The notes under the pieces were generated by a model. It did no database searches. It saw nothing but the letters and a program-made list of their open reading frames with translations, and was not told the DNA's origin. A DNA stretch of 64,000 bases from Polaribacter sp. WD7 (lineage in GTDB: Bacteria > Bacteroidota > Bacteroidia > Flavobacteriales > Flavobacteriaceae), in assembly GCF_003335085.1 (NCBI RefSeq), contig NZ_QPEJ01000016.1, forward strand, positions 372,001 to 436,000. Direction: 5' to 3'. Positions 27,321 through 41,567 of the stretch are shown in pieces. The translations under genes and the position numbers were made by a program. Positions within the stretch are counted from its first letter, which is position 1, and each line of letters starts with the position of its first letter.

Positions 27321-27412
27321 GGTATCAATTTATCATTAGAACAAATATAATTATTCTATTTTGTTATGGATTTTTAAAAGGTAAAAATCAATTTAGTTTT
27401 AACAAAAGATTA

Positions 27413-27455
27413 TTGTTTAACATATATTCATTTACATTAAACATTTGTATCTTTA
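27413..27455 (+). promoter_or_regulatory. promoter-operator of photobiology operon 1, shared with operon 2
   Basis: TTGTTTAACAT (27413-27423), 13 bases, TTAAACATT (27437-27445), then the -7-like box TATCTTTA (27448-27455), 18 bases before the TetR gene start. GTTTAAC (27415-27421) and ATTAAAC (27436-27442) form an inverted repeat with centres 21 bases apart, two helical turns. The same arrangement with identical spacing occurs at 35939-35981. Confidence 0.65.
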
Positions 27456-27473
27456 CTACAAATAAAAATAACC

Positions 27474-28130
27474 ATGGCTCGTAAGAAAAACATCACCAAA
27501 GACAACATTATTACTTGGTATATGGAATTTGTTTTAGAAAACAACCATCAACCAAAATCTGTATTTAGTTTTGCTAAAGAAAATAATTTTGAAGAAGCAG
27601 ATTTTTATAAATTCTATGGCTCTTTTGATGCTGTAGAAGAAGCAATTTTCTCTGAATTTTTTCATCACACAATAACTGTTTTAGCAAAAAGTGAAGATTA
27701 TGAAAACTATGATGCACGAAATAAATTATTGAGTTTTTACTTTACATTTTTCGAAGTTTTAACAGCTAACAGAAGTTATGTTGTATATGCTTTAGAAAAT
27801 GCTAAAAGAGATTTAAAGAAAATGAAATCTCTTAAATCTTTGAGAGAAAACTATATTCAGTTTGTTGAGAATTTAAATATAGAACGAATTGAATTAAAAC
27901 AAGAAACATTAGAAAAAATACAAAATAAATCTATTAAAGAATCTTCTTGGATGCATTTGTTAATTACCATGAAATTCTGGTTAGATGATGTTTCTCCTTC
28001 TTTTGAAAAAACTGATATTTTTATTGAAAAATCTATCAATGCACGCTTTGATGTTATGGATATAAAACCACTAAAAAGCATTATAGATTTTGGTAAGTTT
28101 ATTTTAAAAGAAAAAGTAAACTTTAATTAA
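27474..28130 (+). CDS. TetR-like transcriptional regulator heading the photobiology operon
   Basis: 218 residues. The N-terminal ~60 residues have a TetR-type HTH (NITKDNIITWYMEF, then SVFSFAKENNFEEADFYKFYGSFDAVEEAIF), with the remainder an all-helical ligand or dimer domain. The recognition region is less canonical than usual, so family membership is judged from the overall pattern. It is the first gene of an operon running to 35899 (27 bases to the next gene). It could be the factor acting at the inverted repeats before 27474 and 35990, but a MerR-type light regulator elsewhere is equally possible. Confidence 0.75.
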   Translation: MARKKNITKDNIITWYMEFVLENNHQPKSVFSFAKENNFEEADFYKFYGSFDAVEEAIFSEFFHHTITVLAKSEDYENYDARNKLLSFYFTFFEVLTANRSYVVYALENAKRDLKKMKSLKSLRENYIQFVENLNIERIELKQETLEKIQNKSIKESSWMHLLITMKFWLDDVSPSFEKTDIFIEKSINARFDVMDIKPLKSIIDFGKFILKEKVNFN

Positions 28131-28156
28131 TAAAAAAACATCAGTAATTCTGATTT

Positions 28157-29461
28157 ATGAAAACAATCGATTCAATTCCTACTTCTAAAATACAAAGAGC
28201 CTCAAAATTGGTTACCACAGGTGCCAAAATTGGTGTCAATTATTTAAAATATTACGGAGATAAAATTACCAAAACTGAAAACGAAGCAAAGGCTCGTTTA
28301 AATGAAAATAATGCAGAAGACATTTATGACGGACTAAAACAGTTAAAAGGTAGTGCCTTGAAAGTTGCTCAAATGTTAAGCATGGAAAAAAGCATATTAC
28401 CGCAAGCTTATGTAGAAAAATTTTCACTTTCACAATTTTCTGTACCACCTCTTTCTCCTGCATTAGTTACAAAAACTTTTAAGAAATATTTTGGGAAAAA
28501 TCCTAATGAAATTTATGACAAATTTGATTCGGTTTCTGTGAATGCTGCAAGTATAGGTCAAGTACATAAAGCAGAAAAAGATGGCAAAACACTAGCCGTA
28601 AAAATTCAATATCCGGGAGTTGCAGAAAGCATTGCTTCAGACCTTTCTTTGGTAAAACCAATTGCTATTAAAATGTTTAATATTAGAGGAAAAGATTCTG
28701 ATAAATATTTTAAAGAGGTTGAAAACAAGCTTGTTGAAGAAACAAATTACGTTTTAGAAGTAGCGCAAAGTCAGGCAATTGTAGAAGCATGCCATCACAT
28801 ACCAAATTTAAAATTCCCGAATTATTACCCAGAATTATCTTCGGATAGAATCATAACGATGGATTGGATGCAAGGTGTACATCTTTCTGAATTTACATAT
28901 AAAAATCAAGAAATAGCCAATAAACTCGGTCAAGCTTTGTGGGACTTTTATATGTATCAAATTCATAAATTAAAAAAGGTTCATGCAGACCCTCATCCAG
29001 GTAATTTTTTAATTTCTCCAGAAAATGAATTGATTGTTATTGATTTTGGTTGTATGAAAACAATACCTGATGATTTTTATATACCCTATTTTGAATTGGC
29101 AAATAAAGAAAATATAGCCAATCCTGAATATTTTGAACAAAAATTATTTGAGTTGGAAATATTAAGAGAGGATGATTCTAAAGAAGAATTGGTGTTTTTT
29201 AGAGCTATGTTTCATGAAATGCTAAGTTTATTTACGCAACCCTTTAATCAAGAAACTTTTGATTTTTCAGATGAGGTTTTCTTTGGAAAAATATCTGATT
29301 TAGGAGCCAAATACGCAAAAAGCACTGAACTTAAAAACATGAATGGTAACAGAGGTTCTAAACACTTTATTTACATTAATAGAACATTTTTTGGTTTGTA
29401 TAATCTGATGCACGATTTGAAAGCAAAAAACATCAAAATCAATAATTTTAAGACGTACTAA
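28157..29461 (+). CDS. AarF/UbiB (ABC1) family atypical kinase
   Basis: 434 residues with ABC1 motifs: LKGSALKVAQMLSME (the KxGQ motif, with Ala for Gly), NAASIGQVHKAEKDGKTLAVKIQ (Ala-rich loop and Lys), HADPHPGNFLI (catalytic loop) and VIDFGCMK (metal-binding DFG). UbiB-like proteins support quinone biosynthesis or lipid traffic through ATPase activity. Its place in a photolyase operon suggests a role in isoprenoid or quinone handling under light, an inference only. It overlaps the next gene by one base (TAATG). Confidence 0.85.
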   Translation: MKTIDSIPTSKIQRASKLVTTGAKIGVNYLKYYGDKITKTENEAKARLNENNAEDIYDGLKQLKGSALKVAQMLSMEKSILPQAYVEKFSLSQFSVPPLSPALVTKTFKKYFGKNPNEIYDKFDSVSVNAASIGQVHKAEKDGKTLAVKIQYPGVAESIASDLSLVKPIAIKMFNIRGKDSDKYFKEVENKLVEETNYVLEVAQSQAIVEACHHIPNLKFPNYYPELSSDRIITMDWMQGVHLSEFTYKNQEIANKLGQALWDFYMYQIHKLKKVHADPHPGNFLISPENELIVIDFGCMKTIPDDFYIPYFELANKENIANPEYFEQKLFELEILREDDSKEELVFFRAMFHEMLSLFTQPFNQETFDFSDEVFFGKISDLGAKYAKSTELKNMNGNRGSKHFIYINRTFFGLYNLMHDLKAKNIKINNFKTY

Positions 29462-30093
29462 TGGCATTTTTTGATACAAAAGACATTAACGGTTTAGATA
29501 AAATCTTTAGAATAAATCTTATAAATAGTTGTTCTGGATTTAAATCTGCCAATTTACTTGGTTCTATATCTGAAGATGGTATTCCTAACGTAGCTGTTTT
29601 TAGTTCTGTAACCCACTTGGGTTCTAACCCTCCTACTCTGGGTTTTATTTTAAGACCTACAACAGTTCCTAGAAACACCCATAAAAATCTTAAAGACACA
29701 GGCGTTTTTACCATAAATCATATATACGAAGATATTATTGATGATGCGCACCACACCTCTGCAAAATATCCAGATGATGTTTCTGAATTTGACGTAACCA
29801 ACTTAAAAGAAGAATATAAAGGTAAATTTAAAGCTCCTTTTGTTAAAGGAGCACCAGTGCAGATGAGCATGAAATTTGTAGAAGAAATTTATGTCCCTTC
29901 TAACAATGTAATGCTCATTGTATCTCAAATTCAAGAATTGTATGTAAACGATGAATTACTGCAAGAAGATGGTCTTGTAAATTTATCTAAAGGTAATGTA
30001 GCTACCATAAATGGATTAGATACCTATGCTATTCCTAAATTTAAAAAACAATTGTCTTACCAAAGACCCAAAAAAATTGAGCAAGGTGTATGA
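29461..30093 (+). CDS. flavin reductase-like FMN-binding split-barrel protein
   Basis: 210 residues with the flavin-reductase-like domain: LINSCSGFKSANLLGSISEDG, then AVFSSVTHLGSNPPTLGFILRP, and GVFTINHIYE. The family binds FMN, sometimes reducing it with NAD(P)H. In this operon it may supply reduced flavin or act in redox cofactor turnover; this is inferred from context. Start overlaps the previous stop, and its own stop overlaps the next start (ATGA). Confidence 0.85.
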   Translation: MAFFDTKDINGLDKIFRINLINSCSGFKSANLLGSISEDGIPNVAVFSSVTHLGSNPPTLGFILRPTTVPRNTHKNLKDTGVFTINHIYEDIIDDAHHTSAKYPDDVSEFDVTNLKEEYKGKFKAPFVKGAPVQMSMKFVEEIYVPSNNVMLIVSQIQELYVNDELLQEDGLVNLSKGNVATINGLDTYAIPKFKKQLSYQRPKKIEQGV

Positions 30094-31511
30094 AAATTCT
30101 CGTAACAGGTGCCACTGGCTATATAGGTAAACGTTTAATTCCGTTATTACTGAATGACGGACATACCATAATTTGCCCTGTAAGAGATAAAAAAAGAGCA
30201 GAAAACTATTATAAAGATCAAAAAAAAATTCATTTAATTGAAGCCGATTTTTTAGATGCAGCTTCTTTAGAAAAAATTCCAAAAAACATAGATATTGCCT
30301 ATTATTTAATTCATTCTATGTCTAATTCTGCTAAAGAATTTCACGTACTTGAAGAAAAATGTGCCAATAATTTTAAACGATTTGCAAAATCAACATCGCT
30401 GCAACAAGTCATTTATTTAAGTGGTATTACCAATGACACTAAGCTTTCAAAACATTTATTGTCTAGAAAAAATGTAGAAAAAACATTAGAATCTGGAGAT
30501 TATTCGTTAACCACTTTTAAAGCGGGAATTATAGTAGGCTCAGGAAGTTCCTCTTTCGAAATTATAAGAGATTTGGTAGAAAAACTACCCGCAATGATAG
30601 CTCCAAAATGGTTGAACACAAAATCGCAGCCTATTGCTGTTAGGGACGTGCTTTCTTTTTTGCACAGAGCACTCTATAAAAAAGAATTATTCAATGCTTC
30701 TTACGACATTTTTGGTCCAGAAATTTTGACCTATAAACAAATGTTATTGCAATTTGCAGAGGTTAGAAAATTAAAAAGATGGATTTTTACGATACCTGTA
30801 ATGACCCCAAAATTATCTTCATATTGGCTATATTTTGTAACATCTACATCCTATAAACTAGCTAGTTCTTTAGTCAACTCCATGGGTGTTGAGGTTATTG
30901 GCAAAAGTAGTAACATCAACCAAATCTTAGATGTATACCCCATGTCTTATAAAGAAGCTGTACAACTAGCATTTAAAAAAATAGAGCAAAACAGTATTAT
31001 TTCTAGCTGGAAAGACTCCTACATCAGTAGCGGAAAATTAAAGAAATATGTTCATGAATTTATAAACGTTCCAGAATATGGTTGTTTTAAAGATTTTAAG
31101 AAAAGAACCGTTAAAAATCGAGAAAAAACAATTAACAAAATATGGGCAATTGGTGGTGAAACGGGTTGGTACTATGGCACTTTTTTATGGAAAATTAGAG
31201 GCTATATAGATCAGTTTTATGGGGGCGCAGGTTTAAGAAGAGGTAGAAGACACCCCAATGAATTAAATTCAGGAGATGCATTAGATTTTTGGCGTGTCAT
31301 TTACGCAGACAAAGAAAAAGGCAGGCTTTTATTATATGCAGAAATGATTTTACCTGGTGAAGCTTGGTTAGAGTTTAAAATTGAAGAAAATCAAATATAC
31401 CAAACAGCAACCTTTAGACCACATGGTCTTGCTGGTAGACTCTACTGGTATGCCGTCATGCCCTTTCACTGGTTTGTTTTTAATGGAATGATTAACAACA
31501 TTAACAAATAA
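30090..31511 (+). CDS. SDR-family NAD(P)-binding protein with C-terminal DUF2867 domain
   Basis: 473 residues. The N-terminal ~300 residues are an extended SDR/NmrA-like Rossmann domain (ILVTGATGYIGKRLIPLL). The C-terminal part (~325-470) is DUF2867, with WAIGGETGWYYGTFLWKIRG and RRGRRHPNELNSGDALDFWR, ending in a hydrophobic WYAVMPFHWFVFNGM. The substrate is unknown. Proteins of this kind often lie beside photolyase genes. The gene overlaps its neighbour upstream by 4 bases and is followed 2 bases later by the DUF2256 gene. Confidence 0.85.
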   Translation: MKILVTGATGYIGKRLIPLLLNDGHTIICPVRDKKRAENYYKDQKKIHLIEADFLDAASLEKIPKNIDIAYYLIHSMSNSAKEFHVLEEKCANNFKRFAKSTSLQQVIYLSGITNDTKLSKHLLSRKNVEKTLESGDYSLTTFKAGIIVGSGSSSFEIIRDLVEKLPAMIAPKWLNTKSQPIAVRDVLSFLHRALYKKELFNASYDIFGPEILTYKQMLLQFAEVRKLKRWIFTIPVMTPKLSSYWLYFVTSTSYKLASSLVNSMGVEVIGKSSNINQILDVYPMSYKEAVQLAFKKIEQNSIISSWKDSYISSGKLKKYVHEFINVPEYGCFKDFKKRTVKNREKTINKIWAIGGETGWYYGTFLWKIRGYIDQFYGGAGLRRGRRHPNELNSGDALDFWRVIYADKEKGRLLLYAEMILPGEAWLEFKIEENQIYQTATFRPHGLAGRLYWYAVMPFHWFVFNGMINNINK

Positions 31512-31513
31512 TT

Positions 31514-31654
31514 TTGAGAAAAGAACATCTTCCTACAAAGATTTGCCCGGTCTGCAAAAGACCTTTTTCTTGGAGAAAAAAATGGGAGAAAAACTGGGAA
31601 CATGTAAAATATTGTAGTAAAAAATGCAGCAAAAACAGAACAATACCGCATTAG
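31514..31654 (+). CDS. DUF2256 small zinc-ribbon-like protein
   Basis: 46 residues from a TTG start at 31514, the only plausible start because translation must include the first Cys pair. It carries KICPVCKRPFSWRKKWE and KYCSKKCSKNR, i.e. CxxC and CxxxC, the DUF2256 signature. DUF2256 genes are typically found directly before cryptochrome/photolyase genes. Its last 31 bases overlap the start of the cryptochrome gene in another frame, implying coupled translation. Its role is unknown; a metal-binding partner of the photolyases is a guess from linkage. Confidence 0.85.
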   Translation: MRKEHLPTKICPVCKRPFSWRKKWEKNWEHVKYCSKKCSKNRTIPH

Positions 31655-32934
31655 TATGGTTTAGAAATAACTTAAGAGTTAACGATAATAACTCACTAAC
31701 TAAAGCTACCGAAAATCATGATAACGTAATTGCTGTGTTTTTCTTTGATCCAAAATTTTTTAATAAGGACAGATTTGGATTTAGAAAAACCGAAAAATTT
31801 AGAGCGCAATTTCTGTTAGAATCTATTAAAAATCTAGAAGAAAATTTAGCTAAATTAAATATTACTTTACTTACCTACTTTGAAAGTCCCGAAGAAAGAA
31901 TATCTCAACTTTGTTCGGAATTTTCCATTAATACCATTTATACACAAAAGGAATGGACTCCTGAAGAACTTTTAAGCAATAGAGGTATTCAAAAATCTCT
32001 TGTAGAATCCATAAAAATTATTGAAGATTTTGATCAGTTTTTATATCATCCTGAACACGTGACTTCTAATTTTTCTAAAATTCCGGACGTTTTTACCGTT
32101 TTTAGAAAAAAAATAGAAAAATACGTTTCGGTATTACCTGAGGTAAAACCTACTTTAATGCCTCTAGATAATTTGCTCTCTGTTTCAACTAAAATACCTA
32201 CAATAGAAGATTTAGGGTACTCCACTTTTGAAGCCTCTCCAAAAACAGCTTTTCCTTTTAAAGGTGGTGAAGATACTGCTTTAAAGAGATTACATTATTA
32301 TTTCTTTGAAACTAAAAAGGTAAGTTTTTATAAAAAAACAAGAAATGGTTTAGTAGGTATAGATTATTCTACAAAATTCTCATCATGGTTGGCAAACGGA
32401 TCAATTTCACCAAAAACTATTTATTGGAACCTAAAGAACTTTGAAGAACAACACGGCAAAAATCAATCTACATATTGGGTGATTTTTGAATTGATTTGGA
32501 GAGATTACTTTAAGTATATTTCTTTAAAATACGATGCTAAAATATTTAAGATTGGAGGTATTCTTGATAGAGATTATGAATGGAAAAATAACCAGAACAC
32601 CATTCAAAAATGGATTGATGGAGAAACTGATGATAATTTTGTAAATGCCAACATGATAGAACTTAAAGAAACTGGCTGGATGAGTAACCGCGGTAGACAA
32701 AATGTGGCCTCTTATTTTGCAAAAGAACTATTACAAGATTGGAGGATAGGTGCTGCATATTTTGAATCGATGTTAATAGATTATGATGTGCACAGCAACT
32801 ATGGAAACTGGATGTATGTAGCTGGTGTTGGCAATGATCCTAGAGATCGAAAATTTAACGTAAAGTTACAAGCAGATCGTTATGACAATAATCATTCATT
32901 CAGAAATTTATGGCTTCAAAAAACATTGTTTTAG
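31624..32934 (+). CDS. cryptochrome DASH
   Basis: Photolyase/cryptochrome-family flavoprotein of 436 residues. The N-terminal alpha/beta antenna domain begins ALVWFRNNLRVNDNNSL. The C-terminal FAD domain has IWRDYFKYISLKY, a Trp/Asn-rich SNYGNWMYVAGVGNDPR motif and the DASH-type ending (VKLQADRYDNN). DASH proteins repair pyrimidine dimers in single-stranded DNA or act as light sensors; antenna is usually a folate. The gene lies between DUF2256 (overlapping) and the PhrB-type gene, which starts directly after its stop. Confidence 0.93.
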   Translation: MQQKQNNTALVWFRNNLRVNDNNSLTKATENHDNVIAVFFFDPKFFNKDRFGFRKTEKFRAQFLLESIKNLEENLAKLNITLLTYFESPEERISQLCSEFSINTIYTQKEWTPEELLSNRGIQKSLVESIKIIEDFDQFLYHPEHVTSNFSKIPDVFTVFRKKIEKYVSVLPEVKPTLMPLDNLLSVSTKIPTIEDLGYSTFEASPKTAFPFKGGEDTALKRLHYYFFETKKVSFYKKTRNGLVGIDYSTKFSSWLANGSISPKTIYWNLKNFEEQHGKNQSTYWVIFELIWRDYFKYISLKYDAKIFKIGGILDRDYEWKNNQNTIQKWIDGETDDNFVNANMIELKETGWMSNRGRQNVASYFAKELLQDWRIGAAYFESMLIDYDVHSNYGNWMYVAGVGNDPRDRKFNVKLQADRYDNNHSFRNLWLQKTLF

Positions 32935-34419
32935 ATGAAAGAGAACAAGGTACAAATTATTTTTCCACATCAACTTTTTAAAAAAACCGATGTTTTACAA
33001 ACTGTTGATACGATTTATTTGGTAGAAGAATATTTGTTTTTCAATCAATATAAATTCCATAAACAAAAAATTGCTTTTCATAGAGCAAGCATGAAAGCCT
33101 ATGAAGCTTTCTTATTAGAACTTAACAAAAAAGTAGTTTACATTGATGCCATTGATGAAAACAGCGATATTAGACTGCTATTACCTAAGTTAGAAAATGA
33201 TGGTTTTACAAAAATTCATATCATTAATCCCACAGATAATTGGCTAGAAAAACACATTGTGGCATCTAAAGGAAATTTAGAAATTATTTGGTATAGCAAT
33301 CCTTTATTTATCAATACAAAAGAAGATTTATCCTCTTTTTTTAAACCTTCCAAAAAAAAGTTTTTTCAAACCTCGTTTTATAAAAGTGAAAGAAAAAACA
33401 GAGATATTCTTATGGATGGTAAAAACCCGACAGGTGGCAAGTGGACATTTGATGGGGAGAATAGAAAAAAATATCCGAAAGGAAAAATCCCTCCTAGCAT
33501 TCAGTTTCCTGAAGCATCAAGCTATCATAAAGAGGCTAACCATTACATCAACACCCATTTTAAAGAAAACTATGGTAGTTTAAGTAATTTTGTACAGTAC
33601 CCTATAAATTTCCAATCTGCAGAAAATTGGTTAACTCAATTTTTTGAAATCCGATTTCATGAGTTTGGTGTTTATGAAGATTCTATTGTTAAAGAAGAGC
33701 ACTTTTTAAACCACAGCTTACTTTCTCCATTAATTAACGTAGGTTTATTAGACCCTTTAGATGTTATTCATAGAGCCATATATTATGCTACTAAAAATAA
33801 TGTCCCAATTAATTCTACAGAAGGCTTTACAAGACAAATATTAGGTTGGAGGGAATTTATAAGAGGAGTGTACGAGGCAAAAGGGACCGAAGAAAGAACT
33901 AAGAATTTTTGGAATTTCTCTAGAAAAATTCCTGCTTCTTTTTATGATGGTACAACAGGAATACAACCCATAGATGATGTCATCAAAAAAGTAAATAAAA
34001 CAGCATATGCCCATCACATAGAAAGATTGATGATTTTAGGAAACTTCATGGTCTTGTGTGAATTTGATCCAGACGAGGTCTATAAATGGTTTATGGAACT
34101 ATTTATTGATGCTTACGATTGGGTAATGGTGCCCAACGTGTATGGGATGAGTTTGTTTGCCGATGGAGGTTTGATGTCTACAAAACCCTATATAAGCAGC
34201 AGTAATTATATTATGAAAATGAGTAATTACAAAAAAGGAACTTGGCAAGACACGTGGGATGGTTTGTTTTGGACCTTTATGGACAAGCATAGAAACTTCT
34301 TTTTAAGCAACCCTAGATTGGGCATGCTTATAAGAACTTTTGATAAAATGAAACAAGAAAAAAAAGAAATGCATTTTAATAATGCTACACTTTTTTTAAA
34401 CGCATTAGATAATGGCTGA
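32935..34419 (+). CDS. PhrB/FeS-BCP-type (6-4) photolyase homologue lacking the Fe-S cysteines
   Basis: 494 residues of the deoxyribodipyrimidine photolyase-related family (FeS-BCP/CryPro, bacterial (6-4) photolyases). The N-terminus is typical (QIIFPHQLFK), as are GFTRQILGWREFIRGVY, AYAHHIERLMILGNF and NVYGMSLFADGGLMSTKPY. In characterised members four Cys hold a 4Fe-4S cluster, with a CxxC after the ISxxNYI-MS-Y segment. Here that place reads MSNYKKGTWQDTWDGLFW (from M429), with no Cys, and the whole protein has a single Cys (C375). The cluster must therefore be absent. It begins right after the DASH gene and overlaps the next gene by 8 bases. Confidence 0.9.
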   Translation: MKENKVQIIFPHQLFKKTDVLQTVDTIYLVEEYLFFNQYKFHKQKIAFHRASMKAYEAFLLELNKKVVYIDAIDENSDIRLLLPKLENDGFTKIHIINPTDNWLEKHIVASKGNLEIIWYSNPLFINTKEDLSSFFKPSKKKFFQTSFYKSERKNRDILMDGKNPTGGKWTFDGENRKKYPKGKIPPSIQFPEASSYHKEANHYINTHFKENYGSLSNFVQYPINFQSAENWLTQFFEIRFHEFGVYEDSIVKEEHFLNHSLLSPLINVGLLDPLDVIHRAIYYATKNNVPINSTEGFTRQILGWREFIRGVYEAKGTEERTKNFWNFSRKIPASFYDGTTGIQPIDDVIKKVNKTAYAHHIERLMILGNFMVLCEFDPDEVYKWFMELFIDAYDWVMVPNVYGMSLFADGGLMSTKPYISSSNYIMKMSNYKKGTWQDTWDGLFWTFMDKHRNFFLSNPRLGMLIRTFDKMKQEKKEMHFNNATLFLNALDNG

Positions 34420-35899
34420 TAAAGAAGAAATAAATATAGTATGGTTTAAGAGAGATCTTCGGTTACAAGATAACGAAGCTATTTTTAATGCCTTAAACAC
34501 AGGTAAAAAAACCTTGTTTTTATACGTTTTTGAAAACTCTTTAATTAATGACCCTCATTACGATATACGTCACTGGAACTTTATAAAGCAGTCTATTGCA
34601 GATATAAATAAGGATTTAAAGCAACACAATACTAAAATTATTTGCGTACAAACAGAGGTCATTACTGCCTTTAATCAGTTGTTGAACTTTTATACTATAG
34701 ATACTGTTTTTTCTCATCAAGAAACAGGCTTACTTATTACATACAATAGAGATAAAGATTTTGCAAGGTATTGCAGAAATAACAACATCAATTGGATTGA
34801 AAACAACAATAATGGTGTATTAAGAGGTTTATTGAATAGAGAAGATTGGTTTGAAAAATGGGATGATTACATGTATGCTCCGCAAATTCAAATTAGTTAT
34901 TCAAATGCCAATTTTGTAGATATAAAAACTATAGAGACGTTAGAAAAAAATTTTACCACCCCTAATTTAGCTACAGAAAAACAAACAAAATTTCAGTTTG
35001 GTGGAACAAAAACAGCTTGGAAATATGCTATGAGTTTCTTTGAAGAGAGACACAAACAATACATGTTTCATATTTCTAAACCAGAACTATCTAGAGAAAG
35101 TACCAGTAGACTCTCTCCATATATAGCATGGGGAAATGTATCTATAAGGCAAATATTTCAAAAAGCATTATCCTATCAAAACGAAAATAACAAAAGACAT
35201 TTAGGAGCTTTTATATCTCGATTACGTTGGCAAGCACATTTTATCCAAAAATTTGAAATGGAACATACCATGGAAAACGCTAGTGTAAATAAAGGATATC
35301 ATAAATTAAAAAAAAGTATTTCTATAAAGTACCAAAAATCGTGGCAAGAAGGTAAAACTGGTTTTCCATTAGTAGATGCCAGTATGCGTTGTTTAATTGA
35401 AACAGGATTTCTAAACTTTAGAATGCGATCTCTTTTGGTTTCTTTTTTTACGCACATTCTATGGCAGCCTTGGCAGGCATCTTCACAATATTTGTCTAAG
35501 CTTTTTTTAGACTTTGAACCAGGCATTCATTTTCCTCAACTGCAAATGCAAGCAGGAGAAACAGGTATAAACAATCTTAGAATATACAATCCTATCAAAA
35601 ATAGCACAGAACATGATGCAGACGCTACTTTTATAAAAAAATGGGTACCAGAACTAGCAAACTTACCCTTAGCCTTTATACATGAACCTTATTTAATGAC
35701 GCCTTTAGATCAGCAGTTTAATAATTTTAAATTGGGTGAAGACTATCCATATCCAATCATAGAATTACAATCTGCACGAAAAAAAGCAAGCGACATTCTT
35801 TGGAACTTAAAAAAAAATTCCACTGTCTTAGAAGAAAACCTAAGAATCTTAAAAAAGCACACCCTTTCTGACAGAAACAGAATGCTTAAAAACGACTAA
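34412..35899 (+). CDS. photolyase/cryptochrome homologue with non-standard FAD motif
   Basis: 495 residues. The antenna domain starts NIVWFKRDLRLQDNEAI. The FAD domain has ESTSRLSPYIAWGNVSIR, GKTGFPLVDASMRCL and FRMRSLLVSFFTHIL. Where CPD photolyases have an ANNNGGWQW-like segment contacting the FAD, this protein has DFEPGIHFPQLQMQAGETG (from D367), then RIYNPIKNS. I recall relatives with this segment in marine bacteria, so it is a separate, little-studied clade rather than a damaged gene. Whether it repairs DNA or senses light is not shown. It is the last gene of operon 1; 90 bases separate it from operon 2. Confidence 0.85.
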   Translation: MADKEEINIVWFKRDLRLQDNEAIFNALNTGKKTLFLYVFENSLINDPHYDIRHWNFIKQSIADINKDLKQHNTKIICVQTEVITAFNQLLNFYTIDTVFSHQETGLLITYNRDKDFARYCRNNNINWIENNNNGVLRGLLNREDWFEKWDDYMYAPQIQISYSNANFVDIKTIETLEKNFTTPNLATEKQTKFQFGGTKTAWKYAMSFFEERHKQYMFHISKPELSRESTSRLSPYIAWGNVSIRQIFQKALSYQNENNKRHLGAFISRLRWQAHFIQKFEMEHTMENASVNKGYHKLKKSISIKYQKSWQEGKTGFPLVDASMRCLIETGFLNFRMRSLLVSFFTHILWQPWQASSQYLSKLFLDFEPGIHFPQLQMQAGETGINNLRIYNPIKNSTEHDADATFIKKWVPELANLPLAFIHEPYLMTPLDQQFNNFKLGEDYPYPIIELQSARKKASDILWNLKKNSTVLEENLRILKKHTLSDRNRMLKND

Positions 35900-35938
35900 G
35901 CATCATCATTTTAGTAAATTATAATGTTATGTTAATTT

Positions 35939-35981
35939 TTGTTTAACATTAAATAAAATAAGTTAAACATTATTATATTTG
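35939..35981 (+). promoter_or_regulatory. promoter-operator of photobiology operon 2, shared with operon 1
   Basis: TTGTTTAACAT (35939-35949), 13 bases, TTAAACATT (35963-35971), then a perfect -7 box TATATTTG (35974-35981), 8 bases before the start codon at 35990. GTTTAAC (35941-35947) and GTTAAAC (35962-35968) are an exact inverted repeat with centres 21 bases apart. Every element keeps the spacing seen at 27413-27455 while the intervening bases differ. Confidence 0.7.
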
Positions 35982-35989
35982 AATAGATT

Positions 35990-36421
35990 ATGATTTACAA
36001 TACAACACACAACAATAAAGAAGCTGATGCTATTTTTGAAGACTTACTGGGTAGAAAAACACCTTTTTTAAGATCTATAAAACTAGGAGGTACTGGTTCT
36101 AAAAGAATGATTATTGATGAGGTTGGTAATGGTTTTAAAAAATACATGAATACAGTTTCAGATATTAATTATGGAAATATAGAGTTAAGACCTAAGGGTA
36201 TCTTAGTTCACATAAATAAAGGCCTAAAAACATTTAGTTGGGCTATTCCATTCTACCAATTACACACATATAAAACAAGCGGATTTAGCATTCATGCTCA
36301 GGGTAATTTTGTGCGTTTTAAGAATAATAAACTGTTAAAAGAAAATAAAAAATTTATAGCCAAATTGATAGACCTTAAGATAGAGTTTGATAAACAATTT
36401 GATTTTGATTTTACTCATTAA
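35990..36421 (+). CDS. conserved-looking cytoplasmic protein of unknown function
   Basis: 143 residues, no signal peptide or membrane segment. It has a mixed alpha/beta pattern, with FLRSIKLGGTGSKRMIIDEV, NIELRPKGILVHINKGLKTFSWAIPFYQLHTYK and IHAQGNFVRFKN, resembling a PH-like or small beta domain. I do not recognise the family. It is the first gene of operon 2 behind the shared operator, and its stop overlaps the next start by one base, so it is likely part of the light response. Confidence 0.7.
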   Translation: MIYNTTHNNKEADAIFEDLLGRKTPFLRSIKLGGTGSKRMIIDEVGNGFKKYMNTVSDINYGNIELRPKGILVHINKGLKTFSWAIPFYQLHTYKTSGFSIHAQGNFVRFKNNKLLKENKKFIAKLIDLKIEFDKQFDFDFTH

Positions 36422-36705
36422 TGTTATTTTATATGAAACTAGACGCTGTAGCAACAGATAGAATTATAGAAATGGCTTGGGAAGATAGAACAACTTTTGA
36501 AGCCATAGAGCTGCAATTTGGCTTAAAGGAACAAGAAGTTATCAATCTCATGAGAAAAGAGATGAAACCATCGAGTTTTAGAATGTGGAGAAAAAGAGTA
36601 CAAGGAAGAAAAACAAAACATCAAAAATTAAGAACATTTGAAAAAGGTAGATTTAAATGTACTAGACAAAAAACAATTTCTAATAACTCTATAGCAAAAC
36701 GATAA
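36421..36705 (+). CDS. TIGR03643/DUF2805 family protein
   Basis: 94 residues with the family core DRIIEMAWEDRTTFEAIELQ followed by FGLKEQEVINLMRKEMKPSS and the basic FRMWRKRVQGRKTKH. The pattern suggests a small helix-turn-helix fold that may bind nucleic acid. The family is, as I recall, commonly found near photolyase and light-induced genes. Start ATG 36421 overlaps the previous stop; ATG 36433 (MKLDAVATD) is an alternative. Confidence 0.85.
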   Translation: MLFYMKLDAVATDRIIEMAWEDRTTFEAIELQFGLKEQEVINLMRKEMKPSSFRMWRKRVQGRKTKHQKLRTFEKGRFKCTRQKTISNNSIAKR

Positions 36706-36770
36706 TTAACTAATAGTGCTTTGCTTTTAAGTTTAGGGTACTTGAAGACAGCACAATAAAAAGACAACCG

Positions 36771-37469
36771 ATGATTACAGACGTAATAATAAAGGAGAAA
36801 AAAGTATCAGAAAAACTAAACGGTTTTACCGTTGAAGAAGTTGGAGATGACCACTTGTATACAGGCGTAGAAACTCCGATGAAAAAAGATGCTTTTATAC
36901 TTTCTGATGAAGACAAAAAAGATAAAATCTCAAAGTTGTTTGCTGAAATTATGGACGTCATGGGGCTAGATCTTACTGATGATTCTTTAAAAGGAACACC
37001 AAAAAGAGTTGCAAAAATGTACATAGATGAAATCTTTTCTGGTCTAAACCCTACCAACAAACCCAAACCCGCTCTTTTTGATAATAAATACCAATACAAC
37101 CAAATGTTGGTAGAAAAAAATATAACTTTTTACTCTAATTGCGAACATCACTTTGTTCCTATTATAGGTAAAGCACATGTAGCTTATATTTCTTCTGGCA
37201 AAGTAATTGGGCTATCTAAACTTAATAGAATTGTACAATATTATGCTAAAAGACCTCAAGTACAAGAAAGGCTTACCAATCAAATAGCTGAAGAGCTAAA
37301 AACGATTTTAGACACTGAAGATGTGGCGGTTATTATAGACGCTAAACATCTATGTGTATCATCTAGAGGTATTAAAGATGATACTTCATCCACAGTAACA
37401 TCATACTTTGGAGGTAAATTTACTAATCAAGAAAAAATTACTGAATTACAAAACACTTTAAATTACTAA
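36771..37469 (+). CDS. folE: GTP cyclohydrolase I
   Basis: Zinc enzyme of 232 residues converting GTP to 7,8-dihydroneopterin triphosphate, the first step to folate and other pterins. The zinc ligands are in YSNCEHHFVPIIGKAH and AKHLCVSSRGI; GLSKLNRIVQYYAKRPQVQERLT is the typical substrate region. The N-terminal ~50 residues are a variable extension. Folate is a known antenna of DASH and CPD photolyases, so its position here fits cofactor supply. It is 3 bases before the next gene. Confidence 0.95.
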   Translation: MITDVIIKEKKVSEKLNGFTVEEVGDDHLYTGVETPMKKDAFILSDEDKKDKISKLFAEIMDVMGLDLTDDSLKGTPKRVAKMYIDEIFSGLNPTNKPKPALFDNKYQYNQMLVEKNITFYSNCEHHFVPIIGKAHVAYISSGKVIGLSKLNRIVQYYAKRPQVQERLTNQIAEELKTILDTEDVAVIIDAKHLCVSSRGIKDDTSSTVTSYFGGKFTNQEKITELQNTLNY

Positions 37470-37472
37470 GTC

Positions 37473-37700
37473 ATGGATTTAATCAACAAAGCACTAGAGT
37501 TTGAAAAAAGAAAAATGAGATTTCCAACAACTAGCGATCGTATTTTGGCTTCTAGAGAAGCCAAGTCTCTAATTTTAAGTCTAAATGAGATTTACAAAAA
37601 AAATAAAGATCAAAAAATAATGGATATTATGAAACGTTTGACTGCAATTAAACAGCGAATTGAAAAGCGTTTAAAAGGAAAACCTCTTACAGCAGCATAA
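37473..37700 (+). CDS. small helical protein, first of two tandem paralogues
   Basis: 75 residues, starting 3 bases after folE. It begins MDLINKALEFEKRKMRFP, followed by TTSDRILASREAKSLIL and ending in IKQRIEKRLKGKPLTAA. It is predicted to be almost all helix and basic at the C-terminus. The next gene encodes a close relative, sharing TTSDRILASRE exactly and most of the C-terminal MKRLTA-(I/V)KQ-IEKRLKG. No family recognised. Confidence 0.8.
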   Translation: MDLINKALEFEKRKMRFPTTSDRILASREAKSLILSLNEIYKKNKDQKIMDIMKRLTAIKQRIEKRLKGKPLTAA

Positions 37701-37772
37701 TAAATTCAGTTTTTTCTTGCTTTTCTAACTTTTATATCTATATTGCCAAATTAGATAAACCAGAAACGCATA

Positions 37773-37988
37773 ATGAATTTATTAGAGAGAGCCACTGAGT
37801 TTGAAAATAGAAAATTCTCTTTCAAAACTACAAGTGATAGAATCTTAGCTTCAAGAGAGGTAAAAGCTTTAATACTAGAGCTTAACGAAGTATACAAACT
37901 AGAAAAAGATCCTAAAATTATGGATCAAATGAAGCGCTTGACAGCAGTTAAACAAAAAATTGAAAAGCGCTTGAAAGGAAGACCTTAA
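37773..37988 (+). CDS. small helical protein, second of two tandem paralogues
   Basis: 71 residues (MNLLERATEFENRKFSFK, TTSDRILASREVKALIL, ending KLIEKRLKGRP-like with IEKRLKGRP). About two thirds of positions look identical to the protein at 37473-37700, so a tandem duplication is clear, followed by moderate divergence. The 72-base gap between them has no visible promoter or terminator. The next gene follows 7 bases later. Confidence 0.8.
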   Translation: MNLLERATEFENRKFSFKTTSDRILASREVKALILELNEVYKLEKDPKIMDQMKRLTAVKQKIEKRLKGRP

Positions 37989-37995
37989 AGCACTT

Positions 37996-38679
37996 ATGAA
38001 AAAAATTATAATTATTGGGGGAAGTAAAGGAATTGGAAACGCAATCTCTACTTCCCTTTTAGATGAAAATGAAGTTATAAACATTAGTAGAACTTCACCT
38101 CAAAAAACGCATCCAAATCTTACACATTACACTTGTGATGTACTTACTGATAATTTTCCTGAAATAGAAGCAGCAGATAATTTAATTTATTGTCCTGGAA
38201 GCATCAATCTAAAGCCAATATCTCGCTTAAAACTAAATGATTTTAGAAATGATTTTGAAATAAACGTAATTGGTGCTGTAAAAGCCGTCCAAAAATATTT
38301 GCCCATTCTTAAAGAAAGTAATCAATCTTCGATATTACTTTTTAGTACGGTCGCTTCTAAGTTAGGCATGCCTTTTCATGCTAGTGTTGCCGCCTCAAAA
38401 TCTGCCATAGAAGGTCTTACGAAATCTTTAGGCGCAGAATTAGCTCCAAATATTAGAGTTAATGCTATAGCTCCAACAGTAACAGATACAGATTTAGCCT
38501 CAAAATTACTACGTAATGAGCGCTTAATAGAAAACATAAAAGAGCGTCATCCTCTCAAAAAATTCTTAGACCCTAAAGAAGTAGCTGATTTGGCTACATT
38601 TTTAATCTCAGAGAAAGCAAGCTCTATTTCTGGTCAAATTTTTGAACTTGACTGCGGAATCGTAAGCTTCAAAATCTAA
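37996..38679 (+). CDS. short-chain dehydrogenase/reductase family protein lacking the catalytic Tyr
   Basis: 227 residues with a Rossmann fold: IIIGGSKGIGNAIS is the cofactor loop and NLIYCPGSIN stands where NNAG usually does. The active-site region reads LLFSTVASKLGMPFHASVAASKSAIEG: the Ser is present and the Lys is present, but the YxxxK Tyr is Val (VAASK). The C-terminal GQIFELDCG is typical. I recall the same HASVA-x-xK form in SDR proteins beside photolyases of other bacteria, so it may be a subfamily trait. Ordinary reductase chemistry is doubtful. Confidence 0.85.
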   Translation: MKKIIIIGGSKGIGNAISTSLLDENEVINISRTSPQKTHPNLTHYTCDVLTDNFPEIEAADNLIYCPGSINLKPISRLKLNDFRNDFEINVIGAVKAVQKYLPILKESNQSSILLFSTVASKLGMPFHASVAASKSAIEGLTKSLGAELAPNIRVNAIAPTVTDTDLASKLLRNERLIENIKERHPLKKFLDPKEVADLATFLISEKASSISGQIFELDCGIVSFKI

Positions 38680-38684
38680 TTTTT

Positions 38685-39161
38685 ATGACACATAGCATAT
38701 ATGACATTGAGATTAATAGTCTCAAAAACACACCTATACAATTATCAGATTTTAAAGGAAAACATATTTTAATTGTAAACGTTGCCTCTAAATGTGGTTT
38801 CACACCTCAATACAAAGAATTAGAAGAATTACATACAAAATATAAAGACAAACTTATAGTTATTGGGGTTCCTTGCAATCAGTTTGGAAAACAAGAACCA
38901 GGAGACGCTTCTGAAATTCAAGAATTTTGTCAAGTAAATTTTGGTGTATCTTTTTTAATTGCCGAGAAAGTAGATGTTAAAGGCATTAATCAACACCCGC
39001 TATATACGTGGTTAACACAAAGAGAATTTAACAATAAAAAAAGTTCTTCTGTAAAGTGGAATTTTCAAAAATATTTGATTTCACCTGAAGGTAAACTAAT
39101 CGATTACTATTTTTCCATTACTAAGCCATCGAGTTCAAAAATTACAAAATACTTAAATTAG
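38685..39161 (+). CDS. glutathione peroxidase family protein
   Basis: 158 residues. The peroxidatic Cys (not selenocysteine) is in NVASKCGFTPQYKELEELH, the Gln of the catalytic tetrad in VPCNQFGKQEPG, and the Trp in KWNFQKYLIS. Bacterial Cys-type members usually take electrons from thioredoxin. No signal peptide is present. It is 5 bases after the SDR gene, and fits removal of lipid peroxides formed by photo-oxidation. Confidence 0.93.
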   Translation: MTHSIYDIEINSLKNTPIQLSDFKGKHILIVNVASKCGFTPQYKELEELHTKYKDKLIVIGVPCNQFGKQEPGDASEIQEFCQVNFGVSFLIAEKVDVKGINQHPLYTWLTQREFNNKKSSSVKWNFQKYLISPEGKLIDYYFSITKPSSSKITKYLN

Positions 39162-39167
39162 AAATAT

Positions 39168-39356
39168 ATGTTTGGATTATTTAAGAAAAAAAGTCAATTA
39201 CAAAAATATCAAGAACTCTATAAAAAATTAATGGAAGACGCATACAAATTACAATCTATTAATAGAAGTGATAGCGATCAAAAATATCTAGAAGCAGACT
39301 TGATTTTAAAAAAGATAGAATCTTTGCAAGCAAAAGCAATTGATGAAAAAACTTAA
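39168..39356 (+). CDS. small Lacal_2735-family-like protein
   Basis: 62 residues (MFGLFKKKSQLQKYQELYKK ...), helical and probably coiled coil, with the MFGLFKKKS start I associate with the flavobacterial Lacal_2735 family. The function is unknown. It starts 6 bases after the glutathione peroxidase stop, and its last 14 bases overlap the tspO start. Confidence 0.75.
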   Translation: MFGLFKKKSQLQKYQELYKKLMEDAYKLQSINRSDSDQKYLEADLILKKIESLQAKAIDEKT

Positions 39357-39795
39357 ATATACTCTCTTATTTTTTATCATAAATTTTACGGGTTTAGCTA
39401 TTGGTAATTTTTTTATGAATGGTGGTCCAAAGTCTGATTGGTATTTAAATCTAAACAAAGCACCCTGGACACCCCCAGGTTGGGTATTTGGTGCTGCTTG
39501 GACTTTTATTATGATTTGTTTTTCTATATATTTAGGAAAACAATTTTCAGAAAAAAATCGAAGTAAATTAATAAGTGTCGTCTTTTGTTTAGCTTTTATT
39601 CTTAACGTAAGTTGGAATTATATATTTTTTAATCAACAACTGATTTTCTTAGCCTTAATTAACATTACACTATTAACAACAGTTTTATGCTATTGCTTTT
39701 TTAATTTTAAGAATTATAATTATTTGTTGCTGCCCTATATAATTTGGTTGTGTATAGCAACCTCTTTAAACCTATATATTCTAGTACACAACTAA
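39343..39795 (+). CDS. tspO: TspO/MBR family membrane protein
   Basis: 150 residues from ATG 39343; a TTG three bases earlier is less likely. Five hydrophobic segments are visible, with the family motif LNLNKAPWTPPGWVFGAAWT after the first helix. TspO proteins bind porphyrins and are linked to light and oxidative stress, in which they may help degrade or export phototoxic tetrapyrroles. Its presence in a photolyase operon fits this. It ends 1 base before the SRPBCC gene. Confidence 0.93.
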   Translation: MKKLKYTLLFFIINFTGLAIGNFFMNGGPKSDWYLNLNKAPWTPPGWVFGAAWTFIMICFSIYLGKQFSEKNRSKLISVVFCLAFILNVSWNYIFFNQQLIFLALINITLLTTVLCYCFFNFKNYNYLLLPYIIWLCIATSLNLYILVHN

Positions 39796-39796
39796 T

Positions 39797-40261
39797 ATGA
39801 AAATATACACATTACATAAAAAACAAAAATTACCCATCTCTGTTGATCAAGCCTGGGAATTTTTATCTAGCCCAAAAAATTTAAAAACAATTACACCCGA
39901 ATACATGGGGTTTCATATTCTTTCTGGAGCAAATAAACCTATGTTTCCTGGTCAAATCATTCAATATATTGTTACACCTGTACTAGGCATCAAAACAAAA
40001 TGGGTAACTGAAATAACCCATGTTAAAGACAAAGAATATTTTGTAGATGAGCAACGTTACGGACCGTATGCTTTATGGCATCACAAACATTTTATTAATA
40101 AAATTGAAGGTGGTGTAGAAATGGAAGATATTATAGATTACAAAATACCTATGGGCATTTTAGGCCAAATAGTACACCCTATTTTGGTAAAACCAAAACT
40201 TGAAGAGATTTTTAATTACAGGCAAAAAAAACTGATATCCCTTTTTGGAGAATACAAGTAA
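39797..40261 (+). CDS. SRPBCC-fold ligand-binding protein
   Basis: 154 residues with the START/Bet v1-like pattern: LPISVDQAWEFLSSPKNLKT and ITPEYMGFHIL at the start, DEQRYGPYALWHHKHFI in the middle, and a C-terminal helix with LEEIFNYRQKKL. It is a hydrophobic-cavity fold with unknown ligand. Similar genes sit directly before CPD photolyase genes in other bacteria, as I recall. It is spaced 1 base from both neighbours. Confidence 0.85.
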   Translation: MKIYTLHKKQKLPISVDQAWEFLSSPKNLKTITPEYMGFHILSGANKPMFPGQIIQYIVTPVLGIKTKWVTEITHVKDKEYFVDEQRYGPYALWHHKHFINKIEGGVEMEDIIDYKIPMGILGQIVHPILVKPKLEEIFNYRQKKLISLFGEYK

Positions 40262-40262
40262 A

Positions 40263-41567
40263 ATGAAAAAGACAATTAATATTTTTTGGTTTAGACGAGA
40301 TTTAAGATTAGATGACAATATTGGTTTCTATAATGCCTTAAAAAGTGAGCACCCTGTGCTTCCTATTTTTATTTTTGATGAAGCTATTTTAGATAAATTG
40401 CCAAAAGATGATGCACGTGTTACTTTTATTTTTAATGAATTGCAAAAGATGAGAAAAACCTTGCAAGATGAAAATGATAGTAGTTTGGCCATTTTTTATG
40501 GAACACCAAAACAGATTTATCAAAATTTAATAGAAGATTACCACATAGATACTGTTTTTACCAATAGAGATTACGAACCTTATGCAAGGGAAAGAGACAA
40601 AGAAATTAAAGGGTTATTAACAGAAAAGAACATTAATTTTAAAACCTTTAAAGACCAAGTAATTTTTGAAAAAAACGAAGTGGTTAAAAAAGATGGAGAT
40701 CCTTATGTTGTATACACTCCTTATATGAAAGTTTGGAAAGAGCAATTTAAAACCTATAATTTAGACATTTACTACACAAATTCTTATTTAAAAAACCTTG
40801 TAAAAAACACACGTTTACCTAACCTTTCCTTATCCGATTTAGGTTTTACAAGGTCAGGTATAAAAATTGAACAATACAAGGTTACCCCTACATTAATTCA
40901 AGAATATGAAGATACACGTAACTTTCCTGCAAAAGATGCCACCTCTAAATTAGGACCACATTTACGTTTTGGAACAGTTAGCGTTAGAAAAATGATAAAA
41001 AAGGCTACCGCAGAAAAAAACGAAATCTTTTGGCAAGAATTAATTTGGAGAGAATTTTTCATGCAAATTTTATGGCATTTCCCACATACTCAAAACAAAG
41101 CTTTTAAAGAAAAATATGACAGAATAGCATGGAGAAATAATGAAGAAGAGTTTAAAGCATGGTGTAAAGGAGAAACAGGTTACCCTTTAGTAGATGCAGG
41201 AATGCGCCAATTAAACAAAACTGGTTTTATGCACAATAGAGTACGCATGTTAGTTGGTAGTTTTTTATGCAAACACTTACTTATAGATTGGAGATGGGGA
41301 GAAGCTTATTTTGCAGAAAAATTGCACGATTATGAAATGGCAAGTAATGTTGGTAATTGGCAATGGATTGCTGGTTCTGGCGTAGACGCATCTCCATACT
41401 TTAGAATATTCAATCCTACAACTCAAATTAAAAAATTTGACAAAAACCTAAATTATATCAAAAAATGGGTTCCAGAATTTCAGGAACTTAACTATGTAAA
41501 AGAAATTGTAAACCATAAATTTGCTAGAGAACGCTGTTTAAAAGTATATAAAGAAGCTGTTTCTTAA
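40263..41567 (+). CDS. phrB: class I CPD photolyase (deoxyribodipyrimidine photo-lyase)
   Basis: 434 residues from ATG 40263; an in-frame TTG at 40245 lies inside the previous gene and is rejected. The antenna domain begins NIFWFRRDLRLDDNIGF. The FAD domain carries WQELIWREFFMQILWHFP, GETGYPLVDAGMRQLNKTG, and MASNVGNWQWIAGSGVDASP then YFRIFNPTTQ. This is the standard form, unlike the homologue at 34412. It repairs cyclobutane pyrimidine dimers with blue light. It is the last gene of operon 2. Confidence 0.95.
   Translation: MKKTINIFWFRRDLRLDDNIGFYNALKSEHPVLPIFIFDEAILDKLPKDDARVTFIFNELQKMRKTLQDENDSSLAIFYGTPKQIYQNLIEDYHIDTVFTNRDYEPYARERDKEIKGLLTEKNINFKTFKDQVIFEKNEVVKKDGDPYVVYTPYMKVWKEQFKTYNLDIYYTNSYLKNLVKNTRLPNLSLSDLGFTRSGIKIEQYKVTPTLIQEYEDTRNFPAKDATSKLGPHLRFGTVSVRKMIKKATAEKNEIFWQELIWREFFMQILWHFPHTQNKAFKEKYDRIAWRNNEEEFKAWCKGETGYPLVDAGMRQLNKTGFMHNRVRMLVGSFLCKHLLIDWRWGEAYFAEKLHDYEMASNVGNWQWIAGSGVDASPYFRIFNPTTQIKKFDKNLNYIKKWVPEFQELNYVKEIVNHKFARERCLKVYKEAVS

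Follow-up and report, generated by a model that had tools for sequence, protein, structure and literature searches.

The 64,000-nucleotide stretch of Polaribacter sp. WD7 DNA analyzed here (hereafter the window) contains two compact sets of genes running in the same direction (27474-35899 and 35990-41567), and this report concerns the operator that their two promoters share and the MerR-type protein, encoded outside the window, that probably reads it. In both promoters TTGTTTAACAT (27413-27423 and 35939-35949) is followed after 13 bases by TTAAACATT (27437-27445 and 35963-35971), and then by a -7 box on the plus strand (TATCTTTA at 27448-27455 in operon 1, TATATTTG at 35974-35981 in operon 2) and the ATG of the first gene (27474 and 35990, respectively). 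The same elements in the same order with exact spacing had been claimed in a preliminary description of this DNA, and the window sequence bears this out, except that the gap before the -7 box, given there as 3 bases, is really 2 bases at both promoters. We read the common element as an operator, TGTTTAAY-N14-RTTAAACA, an inverted repeat of fixed spacing assigned to neither strand: operator 1 (27414-27443) consists of TGTTTAAC (27414-27421), N14 and ATTAAACA (27436-27443), and operator 2 (35940-35969) of TGTTTAAC (35940-35947), N14 and GTTAAACA (35962-35969). A distance of 21 bases between centres, as first reported, holds for the 7-mers, but the inverted 8-mers TGTTTAAY and RTTAAACA have centres 22 bp apart. 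On the plus strand upstream of the operators, operon 1 has an accessory TTAACA (27399-27404), 18 bp upstream of the TTAACA of half-site 1, with this spacing in 16 of 30 orthologous promoters and one base closer in 7; operon 2 has an accessory half-site TGTTAAT (35930-35936), 10 bp, or one helical turn, upstream of half-site 1, at a spacing kept in 15 of 30 orthologues.

The proteins of the window were annotated by profile search against Pfam and NCBIfam, and all genes of the two operons lie on the plus strand. Operon 1 opens with a TetR_C_23 protein (27474-28130; PF17931, E 1.5e-44), followed by profile matches to an ABC1/UbiB-like atypical kinase (28157-29461), a flavin reductase-like protein (29461-30093) and an SDR fused to DUF2867 (30090-31511), and then by a DASH cryptochrome (31624-32934; TIGR02765, 473 bits, cut-off 317), a DPRP photolyase-related protein (32935-34419; PF04244, E 6.7e-51) and, as its last gene, a cryptochrome/photolyase family protein (34412-35899; PF03441, PF00875). 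The first gene of operon 2 is an open reading frame (ORF) for a 143-amino-acid (aa) protein of unknown family (35990-36421; unmatched in Pfam and NCBIfam at E 0.001). Behind it, again by profile match, come a DUF2805/TIGR03643 protein (36421-36705) and folE, for GTP cyclohydrolase I (36771-37469), and then two small related proteins of 75 and 71 aa (37473-37988, individually 37473-37700 and 37773-37988), which have no Pfam match and which are alike, apparently duplicated in tandem. Matches to an SDR oxidoreductase (37996-38679) and a glutathione peroxidase (38685-39161) are followed by a DUF6435/Lacal_2735 family protein (39168-39356; NF033487, 73.6 bits, cut-off 32, with PF20027 just under its cut-off), a TspO/MBR protein (39340-39795, by profile match), a protein that we take to be SRPBCC-like (39797-40261; a weak PF03364 match, E 0.007, below cut-off) and, last, a DNA photolyase (40245-41567; PF03441 and PF00875, with TIGR03556 at 374 bits, below its cut-off of 885).

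Within the window, GTTTAACAT-N12-RTTAAACATT matches without mismatch at the places of operators 1 and 2 only, and at 3 mismatches the four matches (these two places, each on both strands) compare with 0.34 expected, with none of 100 shuffles reaching four. In the whole genome (2.97 Mb) exact matches are likewise limited to the two places in the window; at 2 mismatches a third place emerges, and a reversed-pattern control also gives 3 at ≤2 mismatches. It is conservation that sets the operator apart from chance. Among 117 relatives, this genome included, the TetR protein was found in 65 and the 143-aa protein in 50, and 30 loci per first gene were examined for orthologous promoters. At ≤2 mismatches the operator is present in 30 of 30 TetR promoters and 29 of 30 143-aa promoters (reversed-sequence control, 2/30 and 0/30), and among genus loci also in 29 of 30 promoters of crtI and 29 of 30 of merR, a gene pair described below. 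The spacing is strict: TGTTTAAY-N15-TTWAACAW at ≤1 mismatch was found in 27/30 TetR and 28/30 143-aa promoters (shuffle means, 0.1 and 0.0), a gap of 14 or 16 gave 0/30 in both sets, and among all gaps from 10 to 19 the only other one to match was 12 (three of the 30 TetR promoters). Position weights from 88 sites also define the symmetry, since the two half-sites correlate at 0.985 when inverted; a direct-repeat reading was rejected as the poorer fit, its best alignment reaching 0.68. A simple duplication of one promoter, already doubted in the preliminary description, is ruled out: the two promoters are unlike in spacer and flanks, and conservation holds for each of them on its own.

The genome encodes two proteins that match the MerR_1 profile. 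One merR gene, encoding a protein of 297 aa, lies outside the window (G000:C9:522126-523016, minus strand), 5′ of crtI, crtB, crtZ and crtY, and a loose operator pattern finds a perfect match between merR and crtI. The crtI product is a phytoene desaturase (NF058655, 742 bits, cut-off 640), and the identities of the phytoene synthase and lycopene cyclase are backed by Pfam/NCBIfam; no model of either collection matched the product of the gene that we presume to be crtZ. A crtI homologue lies 3′ of merR on the same strand at 78 of the 80 named merR loci, and in four genomes (G017, G054, G002 and G028) merR is clustered with both crt and photolyase genes (L138, L139, L141 and L142). A flavobacterial-type merR-crtIBZ cluster was also seen in L248 (CALPPA020000027.1), titled as a Klebsiella pneumoniae metagenome-assembled genome and probably a mis-binned contig.

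The operator of merR itself is arranged so that its downstream half-site coincides with the start codon. TTTGTTnA lies exactly 25 bases 5′ of the [AT]TGAACA at the merR start in 29 of 30 genus loci and in 56 of the 80 named loci, and an operator pattern adapted to the start codon matches 71 of the 80 at ≤2 mismatches (reversed control, 0/80). As aligned to the protein of this genome, the start is TTG in all 30 genus copies (L069-L098), and TTG fits the half-site consensus better than ATG does. The second codon is AAC in 68 of the 69 merR genes that have Asn there, compared with 538 of the 1579 other Asn codons of those genes; 11 of the 80 genes were dropped from this count, having no Asn-followed start codon near the matched start. 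Shared descent inflates these start-codon counts, and effects on translation start may contribute to the bias at codon 2. In the intergenic region between merR and a divergent ECF sigma gene (L064:9017-9136), inspection by eye also picks out TGTAACA-like and CTACTTAT-like elements directed towards the ECF gene at many genus loci, which look like a self-recognised ECF promoter.

The Bacteroidota -7 consensus is TAnnTTTG, and its register relative to the operator varies among promoters. In the 30 TetR promoters TAnnTTTR starts 4 nt (16 times) or 5 nt (14 times) downstream of half-site 2, and in the 30 143-aa promoters at +4/+5 (12 times) or +14/+15 (17 times). Measured from the end of half-site 2, TAnnTTTG starts at -36 for merR (29/29 genus and 67/71 named loci) and at -15 for crtI (25/29 genus and 31/40 named loci), and the -7 box of the candidate small-RNA promoters described below is at +9/+10 or +19. 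These registers differ by roughly whole helical turns, a phase from which we draw no statistics because overlap of the -7 TTTG with the half-sites partly fixes the merR and crtI registers. Because the operator spacing is constant while the -7 box shifts register, the operator is, on sequence grounds, a module separate from the -7 box, and the box does not have the fixed place in the architecture that it was initially given. The element might instead be a promoter and nothing more, serving the primary sigma factor or the ECF sigma factor encoded divergently from merR. A TAnnTTTR box 3′ of the element in both window promoters and the divergent ECF gene in this genome are in line with such a reading, but the displacement of the box against an operator of constant spacing (from -36 at merR to +19 at the small RNA) and the presence of an ECF homologue in 14 of the 80 named merR loci make it very improbable.

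The MerR protein has the features of a CarH/LitR-type photoreceptor. Its N-terminal helix-turn-helix is evident from PF13411 (E 4.1e-16), and R25, W27, E28, R30 and Y31 do not vary among the 20 homologues aligned. Its four-helix B12-binding_2 module matches PF02607 (33.5 bits, cut-off 23); the cobalamin-contact residues W143, E153 and H154 (Wx9EH) are invariant in the same 20 homologues, as are E190 and H192 of ExHxxG, the lower-ligand motif of the Rossmann cobalamin domain, with G195 present in at least 90% of them. Signature motifs of cobalamin photoreceptors include GxxW, EH, GxxxP and GxxH in the available part of one report (PMC11796333); the first three are found in MerR, and GxxH carries N for G in the protein of this genome. 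MerR matches CarH structures in the PDB (E 8.7e-12). Its structural model aligns with the CarH-DNA complex 5c8e over 266 residues (VIA Z 17.2; root-mean-square deviation (rmsd) 12.1, presumably reflecting domain movement), and its modelled sensor domain with 8c33 over 192 residues (Z 17.0; rmsd 2.5 Å). From these features we assign MerR to the CarH/LitR family (probably its B12-based class I) and, because its score is far under the NCBIfam cut-off for CarH, do not call it a CarH equivalog. The preliminary description had named two candidate regulators, a CarH/LitR-type MerR encoded elsewhere and the TetR-like protein at 27474, and the former gains support from a gene that adjoins crtI, has its own operator and encodes the residues and predicted fold of CarH.

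The distribution of the operator across 69 genomes, searched at E≤0.005, bears on the choice between these two. Operator matches are present in 40 of 42 same-genus genomes, and the two that lack them, G031 (57% complete) and G033 (68% complete), are likewise without a MerR match. Nine genomes of other families without a MerR match (G070, G073, G078, G080, G084, G085, G086, G091 and G095; 92-100% complete) have no operator at this threshold, and five with marginal MerR matches only (G077, G090, G092, G094 and G096) have no operator match. Repression of its own operon and of operon 2 by the TetR-like protein would suit the position of the TetR gene, which heads operon 1 next to the operator, and the operator carried by all 30 genus orthologues examined. 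However, genomes without a TetR match (G011, G020, G048, G057 and G071) each have a perfect crtI operator, G043 has no TetR match yet also a perfect crtI operator, and the TetR homologues of G073, G086, G075, G099 and G107, all outside the genus, have no upstream operator at ≤2 mismatches, two of these genomes (G073 and G086) having neither a MerR match nor an operator. Because genomes without a TetR match keep the crtI operator and TetR homologues in two genomes without a MerR match are without one, we reject TetR as the regulator on this presence/absence pattern, considering it a very unlikely one. The N-terminal half of the TetR-like protein, moreover, matched no TetR_N profile even at a limit of E 5. 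DNA binding may be lost in this protein, many orthologues of which still adjoin the ABC1 kinase gene.

Sites beyond the window were sought with a model that used sequence alone and was built from 48 sites, the TetR, 143-aa and crtI promoters contributing 16 apiece. The three promoters of this genome are among them, so their recovery (operon 2, the best match, E 8.3e-5; operon 1, 2.5e-4; crtI, 8.3e-4) is no test of the model. New matches in this genome precede a DUF4199-like gene (0.0016) and a GLPGLI gene (0.03), and one at C8:104651 (0.0046) has no ORF of at least 90 aa behind it. Among the matches listed from relatives there are 103 unique operator places (strands merged, four in this genome), of which 58 are TetR, 143-aa or crtI promoters (16, 13 and 29) and 10 more lie ≤16 kb from these genes. 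The other 35 were sorted post hoc, with references for GLPGLI, fasciclin, CHRD and DUF4199 drawn from the hit loci themselves: 24 precede GLPGLI (7), fasciclin (8), DUF6435 (5), DUF4199-like (2), TspO (1) or DUF2805 (1) genes, one precedes a CHRD gene and one a weakly matching homologue of the 75-aa gene, and nine match no reference, two of these nine having another ORF alongside and two being the candidate small RNA. Operators recur in several relatives before GLPGLI, fasciclin, DUF6435 and DUF4199-like genes, and also before genes for flavin reductases and cryptochromes. The DUF4199-like gene scores 22.8 bits, under Pfam's 32.3, and its homologues with enough flank have the operator in 6 of 18 cases (≤2 mismatches, 0-5 bp from where the match begins) and lack it in 12; two short loci were left unscored. 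That four photolyase-family genes, folE, tspO and their neighbours form one regulon, as suggested earlier, is well supported by sequence, because the operator is conserved at both operons and is the same at the carotenoid operon.

We propose, with a probability of about 75%, that the operator belongs to the CarH/LitR-type MerR encoded 5′ of crtI-crtB-crtZ-crtY, acting as a B12-dependent dark repressor of the whole regulon. By analogy with CarH we infer that MerR responds to light and binds B12 and DNA. In the dark, a MerR oligomer bound to adenosylcobalamin would hold both inverted half-sites over the promoter and block RNA polymerase; light would break the cobalt-carbon bond, MerR would release the DNA, and the photolyase, folE, carotenoid, fasciclin and GLPGLI genes and the small RNA would be made together. 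This mechanism is modelled on that of CarH, and several observations weigh against it. The PF02310 B12-domain profile has no match in MerR, and the NCBIfam CarH equivalog NF052513 scores it at 65.8 bits against a cut-off of 400. Operator matches occur without a MerR match in the same-genus genomes G030, G039 and G041 (53-76% complete), and of the 13 genomes searched outside the genus in which a MerR relative was found at E<1e-30, only 4 have an operator match, one of them marginal. At 40 of the 80 named loci the scanned stretch contains no crtI operator at ≤2 mismatches, compared with 71 of 80 having a merR operator. The sites compared are mostly related by descent, so their counts are not independent, and 23 of the 58 TetR, 143-aa and crtI places, together with the three promoters of this genome, sit in the search model, leaving 35 that do not.

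The same MerR could also activate its targets or work independently of B12, perhaps by pairing with another sensor as class II LitR does with LOV proteins in Pseudomonas. MerR proteins are often activators, and the undetected PF02310 domain would fit this alternative; one class of LitR, according to the available part of PMC9758184, has no cobalamin and depends on a LOV protein for its release. We nevertheless consider it unlikely: the W, EH and E-x-H residues that contact cobalamin in CarH are invariant across the homologues aligned, the modelled sensor domain overlays that of CarH, and the operators overlap -7 boxes and start codons, which is fitting for a repressor.

The C8:104651 site (G000:C8:104651-104801, outside the window; L066 ~2652-2802; L323:1508-1660) has no such ORF behind it but precedes a conserved transcript-like unit that ends in a terminator. 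This putative structured RNA, ~100 nt long, is flanked by a TerC-family gene and a gene for a 122-aa protein. As judged from its sequence it would be transcribed as a small RNA, the newest element of the regulon. A model built from 7 copies finds 22 places in 21 of the 117 genomes, this one included, at E≤0.002, and relaxing the threshold to E≤0.01 raises the number of genomes to 24. The three added in this way are doubtful: the weak matches in G073, G002 and G018 (E 0.008-0.01) lack an operator and were rejected as looking like chance. Fifteen of the 22 places took no part in model building, and in 11 of them an operator (≤2 mismatches) lies 30-57 bases upstream of the matched part. The operator match of the second copy in G064 reaches the edge of the small-RNA match, and no operator precedes the match in the first G064 copy, G025 or G039. 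In G064 and G025 the match covers the 3′ end of a fasciclin gene with an operator of its own; in L371 (G025:C4) and L368 (G064:C50) this 3′ end is seen to continue into the same GTTTTGGTTGATTG-plus-terminator unit as in the free small RNA. A homologue of the 122-aa gene lies downstream at 21 of 21 small-RNA loci, and a fasciclin gene lies directly 5′ at 11 of 21.

The case for the small RNA rests on conservation and covariation, because single-strand folding of the region in this genome gives a z of only -0.68, the folded stretch having cut the terminator. In an alignment of 23 rows fitted to the structure (one row being a weak opposite-strand match in L364), two-sided pair changes occupy 42 cells, compared with 9.6 after shuffling and 2-14 for slid structures, and they occur in all three helices; an earlier 7-copy alignment with a structure drawn by eye gave 7 versus 2.3. 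Since a terminator stem covaries anyway, the weight of the case falls on the inner helices and on the unpaired stretch that is conserved. No Rfam match was found for the copy in this genome, and the G015 copy matched only mir-462 (E 0.76, 17.6 bits versus a gathering score of 90).

CarH of Thermus thermophilus and Bacillus megaterium shares with MerR the motifs RxWE[KR]RY, Wx9EH and ExHxxG, the predicted fold, crt neighbours and a TnnACA element. According to the portion of PMC9304148 available to us, CarH operators consist of three or four tandem 11-bp direct repeats, nnnnTnnACAn, with TnnACA as the element. The near-invariant part of our operator, TGTTTA/TAAACA, is this element in inverted orientation; in contrast to the tandem repeats, it is an inverted TAAACA pair 22 bp apart, a difference that counts against a simple transfer of the CarH model. 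MerR also differs from CarH in scoring far below the equivalog cut-off, and its predicted regulon is wider than carotenoids. The class II LitR regulators PplR1-3 and PmlR2 of Pseudomonas have like targets, namely photolyase, cryptochrome, folE and SDR genes (phrB, cryB, folE, SDR, ufaM). These proteins are without one of the two B12-binding domains, PmlR2 has a LOV partner, and their operator is TGTACA-N12-TGTACA, as far as the accessible part of PMC9758184 describes them; upstream, the TetR promoter of this genome also has a TnnACA-N12-TnnACA pair. In Chryseobacterium lacus, which belongs to the Flavobacteriia, light raises the expression of crtB, crtI, crtZ and a gene for lycopene cyclase, and the available part of that report identifies no regulator or operator and speculates about a hypothetical protein (PMC7064467). 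Literature found by title and the start of the abstract, a coverage that is incomplete, contains no flavobacterial CarH operator.

By a narrow margin we favor the broader view that Flavobacteriaceae possess a regulon under a B12 light receptor, with a 22-bp inverted operator, a half-site in the start codon and a new structured small RNA that has a conserved and exposed GUUUUUUGGUUGAUUGAUU and would spread the light signal post-transcriptionally, a related 3′ end following the operator-driven fasciclin gene in some species. Marine flavobacteria are common in sunlit water, and the literature found, as far as its titles and abstract openings go, names no light regulator for them. The operator provides a searchable handle on the flavobacterial light response, an example of an operator written into a start codon and, with it, a candidate small RNA. 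One predicted sensor would tie the synthesis of carotenoids and pterins to four photolyase-family proteins and to several others whose function is unknown, and would link the light response of flavobacteria to their supply of vitamin B12.

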